Origin: Porphyra umbilicalis
Taxonomy: Eukaryota > Rhodophyta > Bangiophyceae > Bangiales > Bangiaceae
Direction of reading: 5' to 3'
Length of the DNA: 64,000 nt
Assembly (NCBI GenBank): GCA_002049455.2
Contig: KV918775.1
Coordinates: 186,001-250,000 of the forward strand
Position 1 is the stretch's first letter. Every line of letters begins with the position of its first letter. Positions 31,619-50,783 of the stretch are shown here, in pieces. Below the pieces are notes generated by a model, which made no database searches, was not told the origin of the DNA, and saw only the letters and a list, made by a program, of their open reading frames with translations. The translations under genes were made by a program, and so were the position numbers.

Positions 31619-32858
31619 CTCCTCCTCGCGGGATTCCGGAAGGGGTGCGCATGCCGAGCCCCTGCACCCCCCGTGCGAAGGCAACCGTACCAAGCGGCTT
31701 GGTCAGGATGTCCGCCGTCTGCTCCCCCGTCCGCACGTACTGCAACACCAGCGTCCCGTCCGCCACGCGCTCGCGCACGAGGCGGTGGCACACGTCGATG
31801 TGCCTCGTGCGGGCACTCGTCCCGGGGTTTTGCATCGAGGCCAGAGCGCTCTGGCTGTCGCACGACAAGCCTATGCTGCCAGTCTCCTCCGCGACTAACG
31901 CGCGAAGGCGGAGGAGCCACATACCCTGCTTGGCCGCTACGGCGGCCGCGATGTACCCCACCTCTGTCGTCGAGGCCGCCACCGACGGCTGCAGCTTACT
32001 GCTCCAGCACACGGCGGATCCCCCGAAGAGGTAGACCACAGCCGACGTCGACCGCCGGGTGTCACGGTCCGCCGCAAAGTCGGCATCACAGAAACCGGCA
32101 AGGCCGCCGTCACCAGCGTAGCAGAGCCCCAGCGTCGAGGTCCCCTTGAGGTGGCGCAAGACGGCCTTCCCGGCCGCGAGGTGCTCCTCCGTCGGGGAGG
32201 CCACGAACCGCGTAAGGCGCCCCACGGCGAAAGCAATTTCGGGCCGGGTGCTCGTGCTCAGGTACAGCAGGGACCCGACCAGCTCCTGATACAGCTTGGT
32301 CGTGTCCGCGTCTAGCAGCGTGCCCCCCTTTCTCAGGTGGACCCCCGCACCCATGGGGAGGAGCACCGGGTTTGCCTCCTTCAGCCCAAGCCGCGTCAGC
32401 AGCGAGGAGACGTACTGGCGCTGGTGGAGGCGCAGCGTGCGTCCGTTGGTGTCACGCTCAATGCGTGGACCAAGGACGTCAGTCGGCTCGCCCATCGTCT
32501 TGCTCTTCAACGCCTCCGTGACGACCGCTTGCCCGGCCTCCGCGGTGGCCACCGTCTGCGCCGTCACAAGCAGGTCATCCACGTACACGAGGATGAAGAA
32601 AATGTCGCCGTCGGGGGTGCGGCGCTTGAAGAGGCACTCGTCCGCCTCGCAGGCCTCAAAACCCGCGCGCTCCAGGGTACCCCGCAACTTGCGGTACCAT
32701 GCCCGTGCCGCCTGCTTCAGCCCATAGAGGGCCTTACGCAGGCGGCAGACGAGCCCTGGGGCCCCGCGCTCGTACCCGCGCGGCTCACGGATGTACAGCT
32801 CCTCCTCTACTTCGCCATTGAGGAACGCCGTCGCAACGTCCAGCTGCAGCAGAGCTAG
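31503..32858 (-). pseudogene. Copia-1 reverse transcriptase/RNase H, 3' part
   Basis: The frame from 32858 contains LLQLDVATAFLNGEVEEELY (first catalytic Asp), then YGLKQAARAWYRKL, and FILVYVDDLLVTAQ with the catalytic YVDD. It continues through the connection region into RNase H: FCDADFAADRDTRRSTSA, then ASTTEVGYIA, CDSQSAL, and the RTRHIDV and TADILTKPL blocks that end copia pol. RNase H Asp and Glu positions appear kept. No stop occurs before the LTR. Its 5' neighbour is the TIR of the nested hAT element, so the open frame now begins with an ATG and two codons contributed by that element (32879-32867) rather than by copia. Confidence 0.9.
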
Positions 32859-38166: not shown

Positions 38167-38180
38167 CTGGGCCCATAACC
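38167..38180 (-). promoter_or_regulatory. Primer binding site of Copia-1 (half tRNA-iMet type)
   Basis: On the minus strand the sequence right after the 5' LTR is GGTTATGGGCCCAG. It is complementary to the anticodon stem-loop half of eukaryotic initiator tRNA-Met (CTGGGCCCATAACC), the internal primer known from Drosophila copia, rather than to the tRNA 3' end. The same site occurs at 46137-46150 and 50679-50692. Confidence 0.88.
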
Positions 38181-38660
38181 TGTTGGCGGAACCGACCCAA
38201 CAGCCACCCGTGCTCCAAGCCCCGCGTGCTCCCCGTAGATGAGAGGGTAACAGAAAGGTCGTCGGTCCACTTTCTCCTCGCCCCCCGGGACTAGGCCCCA
38301 GGCGCGAGCCTATATATACTCTCCCAGGCATCCCTCGTTGCATGGGCGGCTGCACCCCGGCGCCGCGTACCGCACGGCTGCCCCGCAGCACCCGCCACTC
38401 GCCGCACACACCGCGCGCACCCACGTACACCCGGCCTGTACCCGACACTCTCGGTCGACCCGGTTGCATGTCTCACGCTGCGGGTGTCGCCATGCGGGAG
38501 TGCAAACGTCCCGGCATGACGTCCCCCCCGCACTCCTCGCGGGTCTACAGGTTGTCGCGTCCCGGTGCCGTGTCGGCCCGGTCCGTCGGCGCTGCAGCCG
38601 TCTCCCCCGGGGGGGACATAATAATCTGTCCCTCCCCCACAGGGGTGCTGCGCTCTAACA
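38181..38660 (-). repeat. 5' LTR of Copia-1
   Basis: 480 bp, about 96% identical to 31139-31618. TATATATA at 38311-38318 is the likely promoter box for minus-strand transcription. Followed by target duplication CCCCG (38661-38665). Confidence 0.93.
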
Positions 38661-42600: not shown

Positions 42601-44986
42601 CTGGTACGACAATGCGGCTCGCCACGTCGCTGCGGCCGGGGACGTTTGCGGCATGATTTCCTTGATGGGGTCCCAGTGGCGGGCCTTGCGCTGGCGGACG
42701 GGCTCGCCGCTGGCGCTCCAGGCGGATGTGGAGGTGGTGATGGCGGCGTTGCAGGCGGTGGTTCGGCATCCCGAGGACAGGGTGGCGCGCGCGCCCGTGC
42801 TGCTGTGTCGCGTGCGAGCGGCCCTGGCGTCGGCTTACATGAACCGGATTGCAGGAAGCCGACGCCAAAACGTAGACGCCGCGCTCAACTGCTCCAAAGA
42901 TGCCCTGGAAATTCTGTCAAAGGCAGATGAGCCTGTCTTATGGGCTCAGCTCCAGGACGCTCTGGGCGATGCATACCGCAACCGGGTGAACGGGGACCGC
43001 GCGGCCAACGTGGACGCGGCGGTGGCGTGTTACGAGCGGGCACTGGAGGTGCGCACGCGGGAGGCCGCGCCGCTGGATTGGGCGGCGACGCAGAACAACC
43101 TCGGCATTGCGTACGGCATCCGAGAGAACGGGGACCGCGCGGCCAACGTGGACGCGGCGGTGGCGTGCTACGAGCGGGCGCTGGAGGTGTTGACGCGGGA
43201 GGCGGTGCCGCTGCAATGGGCGACGACGCAGAACAACCTCGGCATTGCGTACGGCGACCGGGTGAACGGGGATCGCGCGGCCAACGTGGACGTGGCAGTG
43301 GCGTGCTACGAGCGGGCACTGGAGGTGCGCACGCGGGAGGCGGCGCCGCTGCAATGGGCCGCGACGCAACACAACCTCGGTAGTGCGTTTCGCAACCGGG
43401 TGAACGGGGACCGCGCGGCCAACGTGGACGTGGCAGTGGCGTGCTACGAGCGGGCACTGGAGGTGTTGACGCGGGAGGCGGCGCCGCTGGATTGGGCCGC
43501 GACGCAAAAGAACCTCGGCATTGCGTACGGCATCCGAGTGAACGGGGACCGCGCGGCCAACGTGGACGCGGCGGTGGCGTGCTACGAGCGGGCGCTGGAG
43601 GTGCGGACGCGGGAGGCGGCGCCGCTGGATTGGGCGGCGACGCAGAACAACCTCGGCATTGCGTACGGCGACCGGGTGAACGGGGACCGCGCGGCCAACG
43701 TGGACGCGGCGGTGGCGTGCTACGAGCGGGCACTGGAGGTGCGCACGCGGGAGGTGGCGCCGCTGGATTGGGCAATGACGCAAGACAACCTCGGCATTGC
43801 GTACGGCATCCGGGTGAACGGGGACCGCGCGGCCAACGTGGACGCGGCGGTGGCGTGCGACGAGCTGGCGCTGGAGGTGTTGACCCGGGAGGCGGCGCCG
43901 CTGCAATGGGCGGCGACGCAAACCAACTTCGGTTATGCGTACGGCAACCGGGTGAACGGGGACCGCGCGGCCAACGTGGACGCGGCGGTGGCGTGCTACC
44001 AGCGGGCGCTGGAGGTGCGCACGCGGGAGGCGGCGCCGCTGGATTGGGCCGCGACGCAGAACAACCTCGGCATTGCGTACGGCAATCGCGTGAACGGGGA
44101 CCGCGCGGCCAACGTGGACGCGGCGGTGGCGTGCTACGAGTGGGCACTGGAGGTGCGGATGCGGAAGGCGGTGCCGCTACGATGGGCGACGACGCAACAC
44201 AACCTCGGCATTGCGTACGGCATCCGGGTGAACAGGGATCGCGCGGCCAACGTGGACGCGGCGGTGGCGTGCTACGAGCGGGCGCTGGAGGTGCGGACGC
44301 GGGAGTCGGCGCCGCTGGATTGGGCGATGACGCAAAGCAACCTCGGCGTTGCGTACGGCATCCGAGTGAACGGGGACCGCGCGGCCAACGTGGACGCGGC
44401 GGTGGCGTGCTACGAGCGGGCACTGGAGGTGCGGACGCGGGAGGCGGCGCCGCTGGATTGGGCCGCGACGCAACACAACCTCGGTAGTGCGTTCCGCAAC
44501 CGGGTGAACGGGGACCGCGCGGCCAACGTGGACGCGGCGGTGGCGTGCTACGAGCGGGCACTGGAGGTGCGGACGCGGGAGGCGGCGCCGCTGGATTGGG
44601 CGGCGACGCAGAACAACCTCGGCATTGCGTACGGCATCCGGGTGAACGGGGATCGCGCGGCCAACGTGGACGTGGCAGTGGCGTGCTACGAGCGGGCACT
44701 GGAGGTGCGGACGCGGGAGGCGGCGCCGCTGGATTGGGCCGCGACGCAACACAACCTCGGTAGTGCGTTCCGCAACCGGGTGAACGGGGACCGCGCGGCC
44801 AACGTGGACGCGGCGGTGGCGTGCTACGAGCGGGCTCTGGAGGTGTTGACGCGGGAGGCGGCGCCGCTGGATTGGGCCGCGACGCAAAAGAACCTCGGCA
44901 TTGCGTACGGCATCCGAGTGAACGGGGACCGCGCGGCCAACGTGGACGCGGCGGTGGCGTGCTACGAGCGGGCGCTGGACGTGTGA
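39695..44986 (+). CDS. NLR-like protein: PH-like domain, helical bundle, NB-ARC and TPR array
   Basis: This intact 1,763-residue single-exon ORF is the best host-gene candidate here. Residues 1-160 are low-complexity. About 164-300 look PH-like, with strands around TFVYACLGRGVFFFP and a final helix with the conserved Trp (DVCAAWVAAGE). About 314-530 is helical, with TGVPVAGPVLRVGLLLAQAA and spaced heptads like HeLo/MLKL-type four-helix bundles (inference). The NB-ARC has a P-loop GGSGKST (588-594), Walker B LIVIDDV (about 676-682), sensor TTRS (about 705) and an LSLSLVGAM block in the GLPL position (about 773). A winged-helix-like part follows, then a degenerate TPR (1051-1096) and 14.5 near-identical 46-residue TPRs (1097-1763). 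In plants, animals and fungi this layout marks NLR immune or cell-death receptors: nucleotide-driven oligomerisation releases the N-terminal effector, while repeats sense the trigger. Start is the first ATG in frame. Confidence 0.88.
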   Translation: MAGGWVAWFGGGCRCRRRGDAARDAAVSSDTGGGGGPPFSAAVADSDNQSTTEDCGSNQTGNTFGGRVAGGPPPSDESSAAVCERADTDPASPAKGKAFLPPNVGATAPAGAACGSSQPSAGSCGSGDVGGAPSSHDPLERDTDNGLGASPVSRRDATGEADGFVGYPIATCQVVSCFSRTRKLGRGTFVYACLGRGVFFFPGARRAGAPTSLAAFRAKGPRRIRLKRGDGALRVALSQDVEGVDLAHPNPRLLLFVRGVEVSTSPAGEDLSEIKLVLEAPSADVCAAWVAAGESMLPLWPELLSAASGSGCDMDALLELVSSLLPSLPAASDAKHGVMSKALGRRGRRAVLETWNWLQPTTAAATAAGKVVGKIGDVVDEVTGVPVAGPVLRVGLLLAQAAALAVLADEHEAVRVAVSGQSAAMAHRLVARIVDALQWEPTDFSSAHVEQLSRVLVDVENVLDVVEASFFARPMTAALLDDAVRGWDADLEALLRIMEDLCASGAVGHTVYQIAEGVSRLERACAASQPAEPDLSGCILGWDAPAPEPGYVPGVDNPDRAEHQIVAALQEPLSDDGRALRLGVCAVGGSGKSTACAGVAACNAMRERFSQGTMWVELGGDASLQTAADAGVTLVFRFCSAEAAQQLLKFAVDKEFFNTASRYLRSVPKTAAAASLIVIDDVLYKKRDLLGLLLKLAPAATPVLFTTRSEAVVGSVPGARLVPIDALPVADAKRLLANSVGKQALTGVASFATDEEVAWVRRVVEKTQRHALSLSLVGAMLAARGGAWRSVVQALERRWMDRDFGGGSNGDLFPRPSVCATLDVSLELLPDAYRAPFAAVGILPVRASVSVLARLWRPQLSAAAATGGPTTECASDDDGLALDAGVEQLVDVLVRAGLLPREVDKIGGVLAGVIVHPVVGEYARSLLGSTCRAAHQGLVVDYMAGTNAGEVDAYGWHAVPIWELPDDGYWYDNAARHVAAAGDVCGMISLMGSQWRALRWRTGSPLALQADVEVVMAALQAVVRHPEDRVARAPVLLCRVRAALASAYMNRIAGSRRQNVDAALNCSKDALEILSKADEPVLWAQLQDALGDAYRNRVNGDRAANVDAAVACYERALEVRTREAAPLDWAATQNNLGIAYGIRENGDRAANVDAAVACYERALEVLTREAVPLQWATTQNNLGIAYGDRVNGDRAANVDVAVACYERALEVRTREAAPLQWAATQHNLGSAFRNRVNGDRAANVDVAVACYERALEVLTREAAPLDWAATQKNLGIAYGIRVNGDRAANVDAAVACYERALEVRTREAAPLDWAATQNNLGIAYGDRVNGDRAANVDAAVACYERALEVRTREVAPLDWAMTQDNLGIAYGIRVNGDRAANVDAAVACDELALEVLTREAAPLQWAATQTNFGYAYGNRVNGDRAANVDAAVACYQRALEVRTREAAPLDWAATQNNLGIAYGNRVNGDRAANVDAAVACYEWALEVRMRKAVPLRWATTQHNLGIAYGIRVNRDRAANVDAAVACYERALEVRTRESAPLDWAMTQSNLGVAYGIRVNGDRAANVDAAVACYERALEVRTREAAPLDWAATQHNLGSAFRNRVNGDRAANVDAAVACYERALEVRTREAAPLDWAATQNNLGIAYGIRVNGDRAANVDVAVACYERALEVRTREAAPLDWAATQHNLGSAFRNRVNGDRAANVDAAVACYERALEVLTREAAPLDWAATQKNLGIAYGIRVNGDRAANVDAAVACYERALDV
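42845..44986 (+). repeat. 138-bp (46-residue) TPR tandem array in the NLR-like gene
   Basis: One degenerate unit (42845-42982) is followed by 14 full units from 42983 at an exact 138-bp period, and a 23-codon partial unit (44915-44986) that ends at TGA. The consensus is RVNGDRAANVDAAVACYERA, then LEVRTREAAPLDWAATQNNL, then GIAYGI. Units differ mainly at a few sites: Leu or Arg in LEVxTRE, Asp or Gln before Trp, and the variable pair before NLG. Blocks of units recur: units 3-4 and 13-14 both pair a HNLGSAFRN unit with a KNLGIAYGI unit, pointing to duplication of multi-unit blocks and recent homogenisation. Confidence 0.95.
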
Positions 44987-45903
44987 ACGCAGCAGAGTTC
45001 TCCGCAGGAATTCGGCGAGACGTCATTCGCTCTCTTTCGTGTTCGCGAGTCAGGGCAGCGCTGGTTTGCTGCGTTAGACGTGGGTCGTACTCTGTTGTGC
45101 TTTGGAATGCGCTGGTCAGCTCCCGCGGATTCTCGAGGTGCGCTGTCGCGCATTGTCGACGAGTTGGAGCGCGTCCACGTGTTGCGGTGAGGTGACGTGC
45201 GCCCGACGTTTCACGACCGTCACTGCCCCCATCTGGCCTTCCACCGCCCCTGTGGCCATTGCCGTCGAGACCGCCTCGAGACGCGCAGGTGGCCGCCGCG
45301 GCGGACACAAGCTGGCTGTTCCTGGTGGGAGGATAGCTACTGGCGGATGGCCGGCGGCAGCACGGCATGCGGGGAATGGCGGGGGGATATGTGTGGCGCT
45401 GGCTTGCATTTCTCTCCTTGACCGTGCATCCGTGGTCCACGCGTTTCTCGTGTAGTTGATTCACGTCTTGCATATCCTTCACGATGCGCTCACACGCACG
45501 ATGCGATGGAAAGCGCACACGCACCCCGCACGCGCAAACAGCACCTGAAGCTGGCAACGTAGGTGCCCCGCACCACCCACTGCATCATGACAATCCCCCC
45601 TCTCCAGTGCGTCATTCCACCCCGCTATCACATTCGCGTGCGCGTACAGTCCGCAAGGTCCACCAGGCGGACCACCGAGCCCAGGGGCCCTCCACCTCCC
45701 CTCATGCCCACGAAAAACCCCCTCCATGCCCGCCGCCGTCGTCTGGCAGAGGGGATGACGAAGGAGCCCACGGTGGAGGGCACCCCGTGGCTCCGCCCCA
45801 CCTGGACGACACACATCATGGTCGAGGTTCGCTCCGCAAATGACCACAAGCAGGAGCAGGGCGGGCAAGCCGCCGATACGTAACTCGGGATGATGGCGTG
45901 TCA
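44987..45903. other. Region downstream of the NLR-like gene, no gene seen
   Basis: The first 40 bp after the stop still resemble a diverged TPR unit read out of frame. The rest has short ORFs on both strands without motifs. No transposon ends were found before the TRIM LTR at 45909. Confidence 0.45.
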
Positions 45904-45908
45904 CCACA
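45904..45908. repeat. Left target-site duplication of the composite LTR element
   Basis: CCACA, repeated at 50779-50783. Confidence 0.88.
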
Positions 45909-45994
45909 TGTTGGGATTCGAAAATTGTACCACTCAGCTACAGCCACAATACCGGTGTGAATGGTCCTGAGGAGTTCAAACTTATAGTTCAACA
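45909..45994 (-). repeat. LTR-A, left (3') copy
   Basis: 86 bp starting TGTTGGGATTCG and ending GTTCAACA, one mismatch to 50693-50778. CTCCTCCTAAC at 45995-46005 is its minus-strand polypurine tract. Confidence 0.92.
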
Positions 45995-46005
45995 CTCCTC
46001 CTAAC

Positions 46006-46136
46006 TTCACAGGACCTCAAGCCGCCAGGTCTCACTCACGAAGCCAATCCCCAGACTCCTGCGATTTCAAGTCGCCCTCAGGTGAGATTCGAACCTGCGA
46101 CCTCCTGCAGAGCCAACCAGCTTTAGCTGGAATTTT
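46006..46136 (-). other. Short internal region of the TRIM-like element, with tRNA-like B box
   Basis: Non-coding. The minus strand carries CAGGTTCGAATCTCACC (about 46096-46080), a good Pol III B-box match, preceded by AGCTAAAGCTGGTTGGCTC. This suggests the internal domain is partly tRNA-derived, but a full cloverleaf does not fold. Confidence 0.4.
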
Positions 46137-46150
46137 CTGGGCCCATAACC
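46137..46150 (-). promoter_or_regulatory. Primer binding site beside LTR-B
   Basis: GGTTATGGGCCCAG on the minus strand, complementary to half of initiator tRNA-Met. It lies where LTR-B meets TRIM internal sequence. The shared block with 50677-50697, TCTGGGCCCATAACCTGTTG, is 20 bp long. Confidence 0.85.
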
Positions 46151-46569
46151 TGTTGAAACGCAGTGGGGATAGGGGTTGGGGGACCACGGTGAAGTGGTTG
46201 AGTGGCTTGAGCTTGTGTGTGTTTGTGCGAACGTGCTTTGTTGGTTCTCCTCAGGATCGCCCGCCTCTCCCAACCGAGAGCACCTCTCAAATAGTCCCCA
46301 CCGGCCCAAGTGCTCCCCCCTCTCGCGCCCACACCGACGCCCACGCCCTCGCACCAGATCGAATCACTCACCAAATCAAAAAGCCACTAGAGCAAAGCGA
46401 AGATCAAATCCAAAACATGCCAAAAGTAACGCCCCAAGATGACCCAACACAAATGTGTGCAACTTGACCACGTCTTGCAAATGTACCATGTGGGGTACCA
46501 TAAGGGTCACCGACCATCGTCCAACCGCGAACCGCCAGTGGAGTCGGCGACGAGCATCACAGTCCAACA
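46151..46569 (-). repeat. LTR-B, the single LTR of the enclosed copia element
   Basis: 419 bp starting TGTTGAAACG and ending GTCCAACA on the plus strand. It is adjoined by a PBS on one side and by CTCCTCCTTGC, a minus-strand polypurine tract (46570-46580), on the other. Its sequence is unrelated to LTR-A except for the TGTTG/CAACA ends. No second copy exists in the window. Confidence 0.85.
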
Positions 46570-46604
46570 CTCCTCCTTGCTTGTTGCCGCGGCGGTTCCT
46601 GTTA

Positions 46605-49600
46605 TCAGCAAAGCCCCATGGCCTCGACATGCTTGTCGTGCTTGGTCTTGCCGAGCTCCTTCGTCATCGGGTCCGCCACCATGTCGTCCGTTGCACAATG
46701 CTCCAATGTCACCTTGTCCGTCGTAATGGCTTCGCGCACAAAGTGGTAGCGAATGTCGATGTGCTTAGTGCGCTTGTGCTCGACGGGGTTCTTGGAGAAG
46801 TCAATGCACCCGCTGTTGTCGACCTTGATGTTGATCGGCCCGCCAGAGATCGCTGTCCGCAGCCCTTGAGTTGCTACGCTTTGCACGAGCTTGTTGAGCC
46901 AAACAGCTTCCTTGCTGGCCTCACATAGAGCCATGTACTCAGCTTCCATCGTCGACAGCGCCACCGTCTTCTGCAACTTAGAACCCCAGCTGACGGCTGC
47001 TCCGCCAAAGATGAAGGTGAAGCCCGTCGTCGAACGTCGCGTCTCGTGGTCACCCGCCCAGTCGGCATCACGAAAGCCTTGTAGAACACAGGAAGAGTTC
47101 TTGTCGAAGACCAGCCCCTTGTCCATCGAACCCTTGACGTACCGTAGAACGCGCTTGATCGCCGCCCAATGCTCCTTGCCGTAGCACGAAACAAACCGAC
47201 TCAGCTTCCCGATAGCGAAGGCGAGGTCAGGACGTGTCCCTACCATCAGGTACATCAGACTGCCGACAGCTTCGCGGTAGGGCAGCGTGTTGTCGCTTTC
47301 GTCGGCCTTGACCAGCTGCAGGCCCACCTCCAGCGGCGTTCCGATCGGGTTGCACTCCGCCATCCCGAACTTGTCCAGCACTTGCGCCGCGTACTTGCCC
47401 TGCGACAGCTTGAGGGTGCCCAACGCCTTGTCACGCCTAATCTCTAGCCCGAGGATGACCTTCGCCTCGCCCAGGTCCTTCATCTCAAAACGCTTGTGCA
47501 GAGCGTCCTTAATCTTGTGGATCGCCGTCAGGCTTGATGCCACCAACAGTAGATCGTCGACGTACACCAGGACGATGATGATTTCGCCGTCATCCATAAG
47601 GAGGTAGAGGCATGCATCCGGGTCAATGTGATTGAACCCTTGTGACTTGAGGAAGTCGTCGAGCTTGGCGTACCACATCTTGGGGGCTTGCTTAAGCCCA
47701 TACAGCGCTTGGAGAAGACGATACACCTTGTCAGGATACGTCGGATCGACATAGCCGTCTGGCTGCTCCATGTAGACCTCCTAGTCAAGGTCGCCGTTGA
47801 GGAATGAAGTCTTGACGTCCATTTGATGTAGCTCCCACCCGTTCGCCGCCGTCATCGCCAGGATGCATCGGATGGTAGTGAACTTTGCCACCGGCGCGAA
47901 CGTCTCGTTGAAGTCGAGCCCGTTGATCTGTCGGTTCCCCATGAAGCACAGGCGCGCCTTGTGCCGCGTCTTGTTGTTCCCGTTCTTGTCAACCTCGTTC
48001 TTGACCTTGTACACCCACTTGCCCTTCAGCACGCGTCGACTGGCCGGGCGATCCGTCAAGCGCCAAGTCTTGTTCTTGCGGATTGCCTCCATCTCCTCGT
48101 CCATGGCAATCTGCCACTTAGCCGATTCCTGCCCTTGAACGGCTTGCACGTACGTCGTGGGCGCCTCGTGAGCAACCAGGCTCACCGGTCGCCAGTACTC
48201 GACAGGTGGTCGCCGCGATCTGCCGCTCCGACGCAGAGTGTCTTGAGAGCCGCCACAACCTTGATTGTCGTCCGTGGACTTGTCAGATCCATCGTCTTGC
48301 TTGTCATCCTTGTCGTCATTGTCAGCATCTACGTCTTCGCCGTCGCGTGTAGAACGCAAGCCCGTCTCGACTTCGACGTTTTCGTCTCCGGGGAGCTTCT
48401 CTGCAACTTCTGCCACCTCGCTTACGTTCGTCTCGGCGAACACGACGCTTCGTGCCTTGACGACCTTGCCGTCGTCGAGGATGACCTTGTACGCCTTGCT
48501 GCCGTCGGGATAGCCTAAGAAGACGCCCTTCGCCGCCTTGTCGCCAAACTTGCCGTCGATGTGACTCTTGTGCAGCACCACCCAGCATGTCGACCCAAAC
48601 ACCCGCATGTGGCTTACATCGGGCTTCTTCCCGGTCCACAGCTCAAAAGGCGTCTTGCCGACGGGAAGCGCCCGGCTGGTGACGCGGTTCTTGATGTAGA
48701 CCGCCGTCTTGATGGCATCCGCCCAAAGATCCTGATCGACGTCCTTGTGTCGCATCATGGTGCGAGCCATCTCCACGAGAACTCGGTTAAGCCGCTCAGC
48801 AACCCCGTTCTGCTGCGGCGTGTCGGGCACCGTGGTCTGGTGCGTCGTGCCGTTCTCATCGTGAAGAGCCTTGAATGCGTTCGACACATACTCGCCGCCA
48901 TTGTCGGAGCGTAAGATCTTGATCTTGGTTCCCGTGTGTAGCTGGGCCTTCGTCAGCCACTTCTTGTACTCCGAGAGCAGATCGCTCTTCTTCTGCACGA
49001 AGACCACGTCTGTCCAGCGGGAGAAGTCGTCAGTGAAGGTGCCAAAGTAGAGCGCACCGCCACGCGACGGCTCCGACATTGGCCCGCCCAGGTCCGAGTG
49101 CACGAGCTGCAGGCGCTTGGTCACTCGACCTCCTCCTGCACTAGGCATAGGCGTCATAGCCGCCTTCCCATACACGCACGGCTCGCAGACGTCCTTGACC
49201 GCCATGGAAGAGCACTTGAGTCCATCGATGTCCTTGTTCTTGATCATCCGCTTAACGCCAGCCGCGTTGACGTGCCCAAGGCGCTCATGCCAGAGCTGAA
49301 GTGAGGCCACCGCAGCAATATCCGACAGTGGGGCCATGTCCAGGTGGTAGAGCCCACTCTTCCGCGTGCCGCACGCAGCGACCTTGTCGCAAATCTTGAT
49401 GATCGTCTTACCGCCCTTGAATGACACTTCCGCACCACGCTCCTCCATCATGCCGACCGACATGAGGTTAAAGCCCATGGTAGGAACATGGAGCACCTTT
49501 TCCAACTTGATCTTGCGCGTCTTGCCGTGAACGATGACATTGAGCACGACGGTTCCGACGCCCGCCGTGGCCACGGACCCCTTGTCACCCATGGTGACGC

Positions 49601-50531
49601 TGCGTCCCGTAGTCGTCTGGTAGTCGTCGAAGCACCCGCGCATCCAGCACATGTGTGCAGACGCCGCAGAATCGACAAGCCAAGACTTGGAGATGTCATC
49701 GGTGTCAGCCGCATTGCCCACCAAACAGATGGCGTCGTCGCTGTCGCTACCATCGTCAGCCGCAATCGCGGCCACCTTGTCCTGTCTCTGCTTCTTGGCC
49801 TTGAGCTCTGGGCAATCGTGAGAGATATGCCCAAACTTATGGCAGTAGTAACACTCGATCTTGGAGAGGTCACCACGGCGGCCTTGACCTCGATAGTTGG
49901 CGCCGACGAGGGCCATGTCGCCAATGCGCTTGGTCGACGGTGACTTGTCCGCCTGCCGCCGCTCCTCCTGAAGCAAGCGGCTCTTGACAAAGTCGAGGCT
50001 CAGCTCGTCCTCGCCCTTGGCGTCGAGAGCCACCAGCAGGTTCTCGTACTTGGACGTCAGCCCGTTGAGGACGCTCATAGCAACGTCCATCTCCGTCACC
50101 TCGCCGCCCATGGCCTTGAGGTTCTCGCCGAGGTTGCGCACGCGGTTGATGTAGCCCAGCATGCCCTCACCGACGGTCATTTCGACGGTGTAGAACTCGC
50201 GTCGCGCCTTCATCTTGTTCATCAAACTCTTGCGCTGGAAGACACCTTGCAGCGTCGACCACATTTCTCCCGTCGTCTTGCAGCCCGACACGTGCTCGAG
50301 CTGCTCAGATCCAAGGGTGAGCCCAATGATGGCGCTCGCCTTCGTGTCTCGACGCTTCCACACCGCCAACTCGCGGGCATCCGCGTCCGTCGGCTTGCCG
50401 TCTTCGTCAAGCATATCGTCCAGGTCGCGCAGCGCGAGGACCATCTTAATGCGCTGACGCCACTCGTGGAAGTTCGTCTCCGTCAACTTGTCGATCTTGA
50501 TGCTACCCATGCCGGCAGCGCCACCGTCCAT
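46605..50531 (-). pseudogene. Copia-B gag-pol polyprotein, one in-frame stop
   Basis: One frame of about 1,308 codons encodes a full Ty1/copia polyprotein. Gag (MDGGAAGMGSIKIDKL, with a UBN2-like body) ends in a CCHC knuckle (CYYCHKFGHISHDC). Protease follows with WLVDSAASAHMC. Integrase has HERLGH...CEPCVYGK, catalytic Asp in HSDLGGPM and RSDNGGEY, and the Glu of QQNGVAERLN. Reverse transcriptase has FNETFAPVAKFTTIR, HQMDVKTSFLNGDLD, VLVYVDDLLLVAS, and RNase H ends with TKHIDIRYHFV and DPMTKELG. The only break is a TAG at 47781-47783 just after NGDLD, where Glu is usual. ATG at 50531 is chosen; upstream codons run into LTR-A. All catalytic residues I could check are present, so decay is slight. 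Confidence 0.93.
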
Positions 50532-50678
50532 AATGTCTTCTTGTCGTAGCACCCGACCTTGCCGAGCCGTGCGCCTTGACCGTCGCGTCCTTGAACCACC
50601 TTGACCTCGTCTTCTTCGCACTTGCCGCCACCGTCGCGACACCAGCTGGCACACCTTGCTCTTGTCACAGCCCCGGCT

Positions 50679-50692
50679 CTGGGCCCATAACC
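50679..50692 (-). promoter_or_regulatory. Primer binding site beside the right LTR-A
   Basis: GGTTATGGGCCCAG directly after the 5' LTR-A on the minus strand, half tRNA-iMet type. It is followed by copia-B leader sequence rather than by TRIM internal sequence. Confidence 0.88.
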
Positions 50693-50778
50693 TGTTGGGA
50701 TTCGAAAATTGTACCACTCAGCTACAGCCACAATACCGGTGTGAGTGGTCCTGAGGAGTTCAAACTTATAGTTCAACA
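50693..50778 (-). repeat. LTR-A, right (5') copy
   Basis: 86 bp, one mismatch to 45909-45994. Followed by target duplication CCACA (50779-50783). Confidence 0.92.
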
Positions 50779-50783
50779 CCACA

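Follow-up and report, generated by a model that had tools for sequence, protein, structure and literature searches.

The window analysed here, a 64,000-nucleotide stretch of the Porphyra umbilicalis genome (contig KV918775.1, positions 186,001 to 250,000), carries at 45904-50783 a composite retrotransposon that is probably a chimera of two families, a terminal-repeat retrotransposon in miniature (TRIM-A) and a copia element (copia-B), put together during reverse transcription and inserted by a single integration. The element lies on the minus strand, and sequences called sense below are its minus-strand reading. In that direction it consists of a 5-bp target-site duplication (TSD), the long terminal repeat of TRIM-A (LTR-A), a primer-binding site (PBS), the copia leader and gag-pol, a polypurine tract (PPT), the long terminal repeat of copia-B (LTR-B), a second PBS, a 141-bp spacer ending in a PPT, a second LTR-A, and the TSD again. 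The features, in window coordinates, are as follows.

45904-45908, no strand: TSD CCACA (sense TGTGG) on the 3' side of the element, by direct reading
45909-45994, minus strand: 3' LTR-A of TRIM-A, 86 bp, with a tRNA-like A box and a B-box-like stretch on the sense strand
45995-46135, minus strand: TRIM-A internal spacer, its PPT (sense AAGTTAGGAGGAG) adjoining LTR-A; solitary TRIM-A copies have this spacer too
46136-46150, minus strand: second PBS, sense GGTTATGGGCCCAGA, linking LTR-B to the TRIM-A spacer
46151-46569, minus strand: LTR-B of copia-B, complete, 419 bp, 98-99% identical to LTR-B of the other scored matches
46570-46580, minus strand: copia-B PPT, sense GCAAGGAGGAG
46605-50531, minus strand: copia-B gag-pol frame with an inferred start codon, interrupted once, by the in-frame stop at 47781-47783
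50532-50677, minus strand: copia-B leader, from PBS to gag; ordinary copies have the same leader after LTR-B
50678-50692, minus strand: first PBS, linking LTR-A to the copia-B leader
50693-50778, minus strand: 5' LTR-A, 86 bp
50779-50783, no strand: TSD CCACA (sense TGTGG) on the 5' side of the element

The two LTR-A copies have TG..CA ends and are identical at 85 of 86 positions, and the 20-mer TCTGGGCCCATAACCTGTTG occurs twice in the composite (46136-46155 and 50678-50697). The PBS within it is probably complementary to the anticodon arm of an initiator-Met tRNA. Each LTR is whole, LTR-A aligning over 86 of 86 bases and LTR-B over all 419 to copies of its own family; both inner joints fall exactly at the PBS and lack a TSD, and a single TSD encloses the whole. 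The Pfam domains of gag-pol (Retrotran_gag_2, gag_pre-integrs, rve, and RVT_2) stand in Ty1/copia order, gag first and integrase before reverse transcriptase, and its closest relatives among the named matches include Chondrus crispus proteins at 39-43% identity. The in-frame stop lies inside RVT_2, the reverse transcriptase domain. An earlier sequence-only reading of the window had described 86-bp LTRs with one mismatch within CCACA repeats, a 419-bp LTR of another family, two copies of the shared 20-mer, and the order given above, all of which were located; the full copia gag-pol that it reported has its four domains in place, with one codon broken by the stop.

Both parents are present apart from each other in the same genome, as that reading had proposed to look for; the LTR-B query used in searches and scripts was 46152-46570, offset by one base from LTR-B proper. 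Copia-B normally has LTR-B at both ends: the best 40 of 724 candidates include 11 LTR-B pairs lying 4531-4549 bp apart, and the six pairs compared show 1-3 differences over 418-419 positions. Solitary TRIM-A, found by searching with LTR-A and the spacer, is 328 bp long (86-bp LTRs, 15-bp PBS, and 141-bp spacer), which is too short for gag-pol; the LTR-A element matches the definition of a TRIM as a very short, non-coding LTR element with a PBS and a PPT. Perfect 5-bp TSDs flank eight of ten solitary copies tested, and the other two match at 3/5 and 4/5 positions.

Junctions of the kind seen in the window recur across the genome. Patterns of the form LTR|PBS|interior were searched for in the 83.8-Mb genome with at most three mismatches, and reversed patterns served as controls. 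There are 12 junctions of LTR-A|PBS|copia leader, 15 of LTR-B|PBS|TRIM-A spacer, six of LTR-B|PBS|spacer C (C being a second TRIM family), four of LTR-A|PBS|spacer C, and six of LTR-C|PBS followed by spacer A or the leader, the last two kinds being counted jointly, with the C260 site placed in neither; the concordant junctions number 31 for LTR-A with spacer A and 248 for LTR-B with the leader. The reversed patterns gave no matches. Together with C16:145 kb and C306:57 kb, which came from similarity searches, the 43 mixed junctions of the pattern search represent 32 loci, a count in which some loci may be fragments and one insertion can have two junctions. All six mixed pairings of A, B, and C are seen at the sequence level at least once: LTR-C with spacer A at C11, LTR-B with spacer C at C10, LTR-C with the leader at C208 and C45, LTR-A with spacer C at C22, and the remaining two in the window. 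Two less selected views also contain mixed junctions: 24 PBS sites read by their flanks, among 373, comprise six mixed, 17 concordant, and one of another family, and at least 11 of the 37 loci behind the best 40 of 120 LTR-A matches have a mixed junction. Because like junctions recur genome-wide and the reversed controls gave none, the window layout is more than chance. There is strong support for the proposal that a TRIM and a copia element were joined at the PBS that they share.

At nine chimera loci both ends were read, the middles of C16, C259, and C46 being covered in part. Six of these are three-LTR composites without deletion, and each has a perfect 5-bp TSD and, as its outer LTRs, those of its 3'-most unit. 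LTR-A is outside in four (sense TSDs: window TGTGG, C16 CCATC, C259 CGTCC, and C46 TGGCC) and LTR-B in two (C208 CACCA and C45 GGGGG, the latter having CCCCC on both flanks as printed); the order in C208 and C45 is LTR-B, PBS, spacer C, LTR-C, PBS, pol, LTR-B. No LTR that was read whole is a mixture of families; the exchange lies at the PBS instead. The 5' halves of C9, C103, and C143 have the reciprocal order: LTR-B, spacer A, LTR-A, pol. Longer chains also occur: C206 has LTR-A, spacer, LTR-A, spacer, LTR-A; C22 has LTR-B, spacer A, LTR-A, spacer C; and C106 has LTR-A, spacer, LTR-A, pol, a 2.4-kb unread gap, then pol, LTR-B, pol. The C206 tandem has CAACA on both sides, which is the same as the LTR's own end and carries little weight, and the flanks of the C345 tandem match at 3/5 positions.

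Two rearranged loci likewise have perfect TSDs. C15:170 kb, with GGGGG on both flanks, might be taken for an A/B chimeric LTR; the simpler reading is a composite bounded by LTR-A, from which pol was deleted between LTR-A and LTR-B. C559 (1199-1852 of the fetched piece) is a palindromic inverted dimer of U5-B (the unique 5' region of LTR-B), PBS, spacer, and LTR-A with the TSD CTCTC, and has the look of a snap-back cDNA whose synthesis went on from the TRIM PBS into U5-B before it integrated. A snap-back point at the start of copia-B transcription would have favoured a fresh switch, but this is not claimed, since the TATA-like TATTTGAG begins only 17 nt upstream, which is too close. As a separate observation, C127 has four copia-B PBS junctions in a row (107338-117068), 3230-3231 bp apart, and is a tandem array of a shortened copia unit.

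The descent of the copia part was examined with a 31-row tree built on 1458 nt from the leader and the 5' part of pol, with 14 rows from chimeras (C102 included) and 17 ordinary ones; duplicate loci and pieces shorter than 1300 nt were left out. The window pol is sister to the ordinary copia C154 (99% identity, support 100/97) in this tree, whose ordinary rows are the best matches to the window LTR-B or leader and so lean to the window's kin, and the chimera label needs at least four changes. Because its nearest 5' pol relative is an ordinary copia, the window copy appears to be a separate, recent fusion. C46 and C259 belong to one copia subfamily, with pol 6.0% apart; their TRIM spacers are 13.5% apart with nine gap columns, and they look like separate captures. 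Divergence of the LTR-A pair per lineage, set against the pol end branch, is 0.6/0.8% in the window, 1.2/1.6% in C259, 2.9/4.8% in C46, and 4.7/6.1% in C16; the LTR value is the lower in four of four and ranks in the same order, a weak pattern given the small number, as if LTRs and cargo had landed together.

One other composite has evidently moved as a unit and multiplied. C208 and C45 are sisters (100/98) with inserts that differ at 4 of 220 positions, pol and leader that differ at 42 of 1618, and different flanks and TSDs, and C14 and C30 have both junctions of the LTR-B, spacer C, LTR-C composite at the same 228-bp spacing; it is from these near-identical inserts, different flanks, and shared spacing that movement of the whole LTR-B, spacer C, LTR-C, pol, LTR-B unit is read.

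The window map would require one extra jump in an otherwise ordinary reverse transcription. Minus-strand DNA would start on TRIM-A RNA, make its first jump, and copy U3-A (the unique 3' region of LTR-A), PPT, spacer, and PBS, at which point its 3' end, like that of every finished minus strand, would be the PBS complement, here left bare. Instead of pairing with plus-strand DNA, this end would anneal to the PBS of a co-packaged, unprimed copia-B RNA; U5-B and R-B (the terminal repeat region) would be copied, followed by the ordinary R jump on the copia-B RNA and by U3-B, PPT, pol, and leader. The minus strand would stop at the copia-B PBS because RNase H had removed R-U5, and plus-strand DNA from the TRIM PPT (LTR-A and PBS) would pair with that end, giving a linear DNA with LTR-A at both ends that integrase could insert with a 5-bp TSD. 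First priming on copia-B RNA would produce the reciprocal form, and repeated jumps the longer chains. With the parents, junctions, TSDs, reciprocal forms, recurrence, and unit movement of one composite observed directly, we infer that the RNAs were co-packaged and that the joint was made by reverse transcriptase rather than DNA repair. A jump at the PBS predicts that the outer LTRs are those of the 3'-most unit, as is true of the six undeleted composites with a TSD and not of C102. Under a jump at R, U5, PBS, and interior would be expected to stay matched; the window shows the opposite, with whole LTRs and mixed PBS junctions.

Several points weigh against formation during reverse transcription. 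The 20-bp shared tract would serve DNA recombination as well. The C559 palindrome could have been copied from the RNA of an older composite. C102 runs from LTR-A through pol and LTR-B into flank, has GCCAC on its 5' side and CTTTC on its 3' side and hence no matching TSD, and its outer LTRs do not fit the rule of the 3'-most unit. C9, C103, C106, and C22 were read in part rather than to both ends, and a search for the 3' ends of C306:45 kb, C246:27 kb, and C143 at the places expected gave either no element match, as in the first two, or pol that passed into unrelated DNA. In C46, C259, and C107 LTR-B aligns only over its end 145 nt, at 86%, which points to a diverged LTR-B subfamily, and the statement that the LTRs are whole does not reach these loci. 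Finally, the chimera label is more clustered on the tree than after shuffling (0/500 shuffles were as low); this may be partly sampling, and may partly be shared descent, some chimeras coming from shared fusions.

Recombination as DNA between a one-LTR copia-B circle and a TRIM (genomic or cDNA) over the 20-bp PBS/LTR-end tract, the first of two routes named by the sequence-only reading, gives the same map, and the reciprocal map with roles exchanged. One-LTR circles are cited as replication products in the Discussion of PMC11899658, and circles could also make the tandem copia arrays of this genome (PBS sites 4541-4542 bp apart in C62 and 3230-3231 bp apart in C127). This route is the main rival but the less likely: it would need short-homology recombination at many loci with 5-bp TSDs left intact, in none of the four cases of that small sample is the LTR-A pair older than the pol that it encloses, and the C559 palindrome points to a cDNA stage. 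Template switching, the second route named, fits better.

It is improbable that the window copy, instead of being newly fused, goes back to an old composite that transposed again in one piece. The C208/C45 composite did move in this way, with the C14 and C30 spacing in agreement, and the clustering of chimera rows favours it; against it, the sister of the window pol is an ordinary copia, C154, and not a composite, and even C46 and C259 look like separate captures. No second copy of the window composite was present among the fetched loci and its gag-pol has an in-frame stop, so that the suggestion of a TRIM turned into a carrier of an autonomous element is not borne out for this copy; transposition of a composite as a unit holds for a different one, of LTR-B, TRIM-C, and copia. 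Nested insertion, or recombination between neighbours after integration, has very little probability: nested insertions do occur, as at C135, where a TRIM-A lies in copia pol with its own TSD, GCATG, but in the window the inner joints are PBS-exact and without a TSD while one TSD surrounds the whole, which rules out nesting, and recombination between neighbours would remove the shared TSD. An assembly artefact, or LTR-A as a native end of copia-B, the two findings that the sequence-only reading had named as refuting it, found no support and is hardly credible, given the 248 LTR-B|PBS|leader junctions (which rule out LTR-A as the native end) and 11 LTR-B pairs among the best 40 matches, the perfect TSDs of eight of ten solitary TRIM-A copies, and 32 chimera loci in the assembly, with junctions recurring on many contigs with their own TSDs.

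Template-switch complexes, tandem TRIMs, tandem LTR elements, and switching between a mini-element and its helper are already in print; for all but PMC1950507, the comparisons below cover sections or passages. Complex LTR retrotransposons of cereals are attributed to reverse transcriptase acting on two co-packaged RNAs and switching at R, which yields chimeric LTRs (Sabot and Schulman, 2007; PMC1950507). The window shares with them two cores, an inner LTR (three LTRs in all), like outer LTRs, and one 5-bp TSD round the whole. Their four cases pair members of one family, whereas TRIMs are here fused to copia at 32 loci in one 84-Mb genome, and the R switch with chimeric LTRs is absent in the window, where whole LTRs accompany a jump at the PBS. 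Tandem TRIM and Cassandra arrays are chains of alternating LTRs and interiors of small non-autonomous elements, with template switching named as one route for Cassandra (PMC4717578; PMC7215508); C206 is such an array, but the arrays described there are homotypic, whereas the chains here mix two TRIM families and coding copia, and the window element joins two families rather than repeating units of one. Tandem LTR-retrotransposons of rice, with perfect 5-nt TSDs in 10 of 28 clear cases, have the same alternation (PMC11899658); they were detected through repeated interiors or LTRs of high similarity, with no TRIM-helper mixing noted in the sections compared. In mini-Tnt1 with its endogenous Tnt1 helper, template switching between a non-autonomous element and a copia helper in one particle was experimental (PMC2923131); those RNAs are of the same family and the chimera is in the LTR, unlike the three-LTR composite here. 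Heterotypic TRIM-copia or TRIM-helper composites joined at the PBS were not found described in the literature searched, subscription journals being mostly outside reach.

TRIM-A itself is a candidate polymerase III TRIM of the Helenus kind. In the sense strand of LTR-A (45909-45994 and 50693-50778) there is an A box of tRNA type, TAGCTGAGTGG, and also a near B box, TTTCGAATC, without the first G; the two occurred in order in seven of 200,000 mononucleotide shuffles, and the TRIM-A spacer has a perfect B box, GTTCGAATC. The marks of Helenus / TRIMp3 are a tRNA-derived LTR with boxes A and B and transcription by RNA polymerase III. Helenus (Kojima, 2024; PMC10886601) is similar in its TRIM size, the 5-bp TSD of its fungal and plant members, and an A box in the LTR; in most fungal members the PBS matches the anticodon loop of a tRNA, and dependence on copia is presumed for them. 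The differences are that the B box of LTR-A is only a near one, that neither Rfam nor ARAGORN found a tRNA in TRIM-A, and that the families of that paper come from fungi, animals, and one lycophyte.

We tentatively suggest that the PBS is a universal joint in this genome: whenever a TRIM RNA and a copia RNA that have the half-tRNA-type PBS in common share a particle, the bare minus-strand PBS end would move readily to the next RNA, and LTR/interior cassettes would be shuffled and chained in any order. If true, such a joint would generate new chimeric families, one already multiplied, and leave a physical record of copia-TRIM mobilisation pairs; the minus-strand PBS end is indicated as a jumping point distinct from R. 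The picture of a TRIM that swallows a copia is borne out as far as it goes, but it is one-sided, since copia elements also swallow TRIMs, a second TRIM family takes part, and the process is recurrent; the composites illustrate how a host element and its non-coding parasite can become one and go on to spread. Most TRIMs have no known helper: larger related elements were found for 11 of 289 TRIM subfamilies (PMC4717578), and the partners of Cassandra are called unknown (PMC7215508). A chimera joined at the PBS means that its two nucleic acids came together in a single complex, of reverse transcription or of recombination, so that scanning a genome for LTR|PBS|interior junctions of mixed type could identify helpers without other data than sequence, and may reveal which copia mobilises a TRIM even where the two share little else.

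Elsewhere in the window, a third PBS copy (38169-38200) adjoins a different LTR-like sequence (TGTTGGCGGAACC.., with TATATATA near 38311), and 31948-32094 is a 70% match to copia pol, so this part of the window may contain another copia family that shares the PBS. Beside the composite, an 890-codon minus-strand frame (42885-45557) with a repeated RPRWPRGPRSPG-like unit is either simple repeat coding or a chance open frame in GC-rich DNA, the GC fraction of the window being 0.66.

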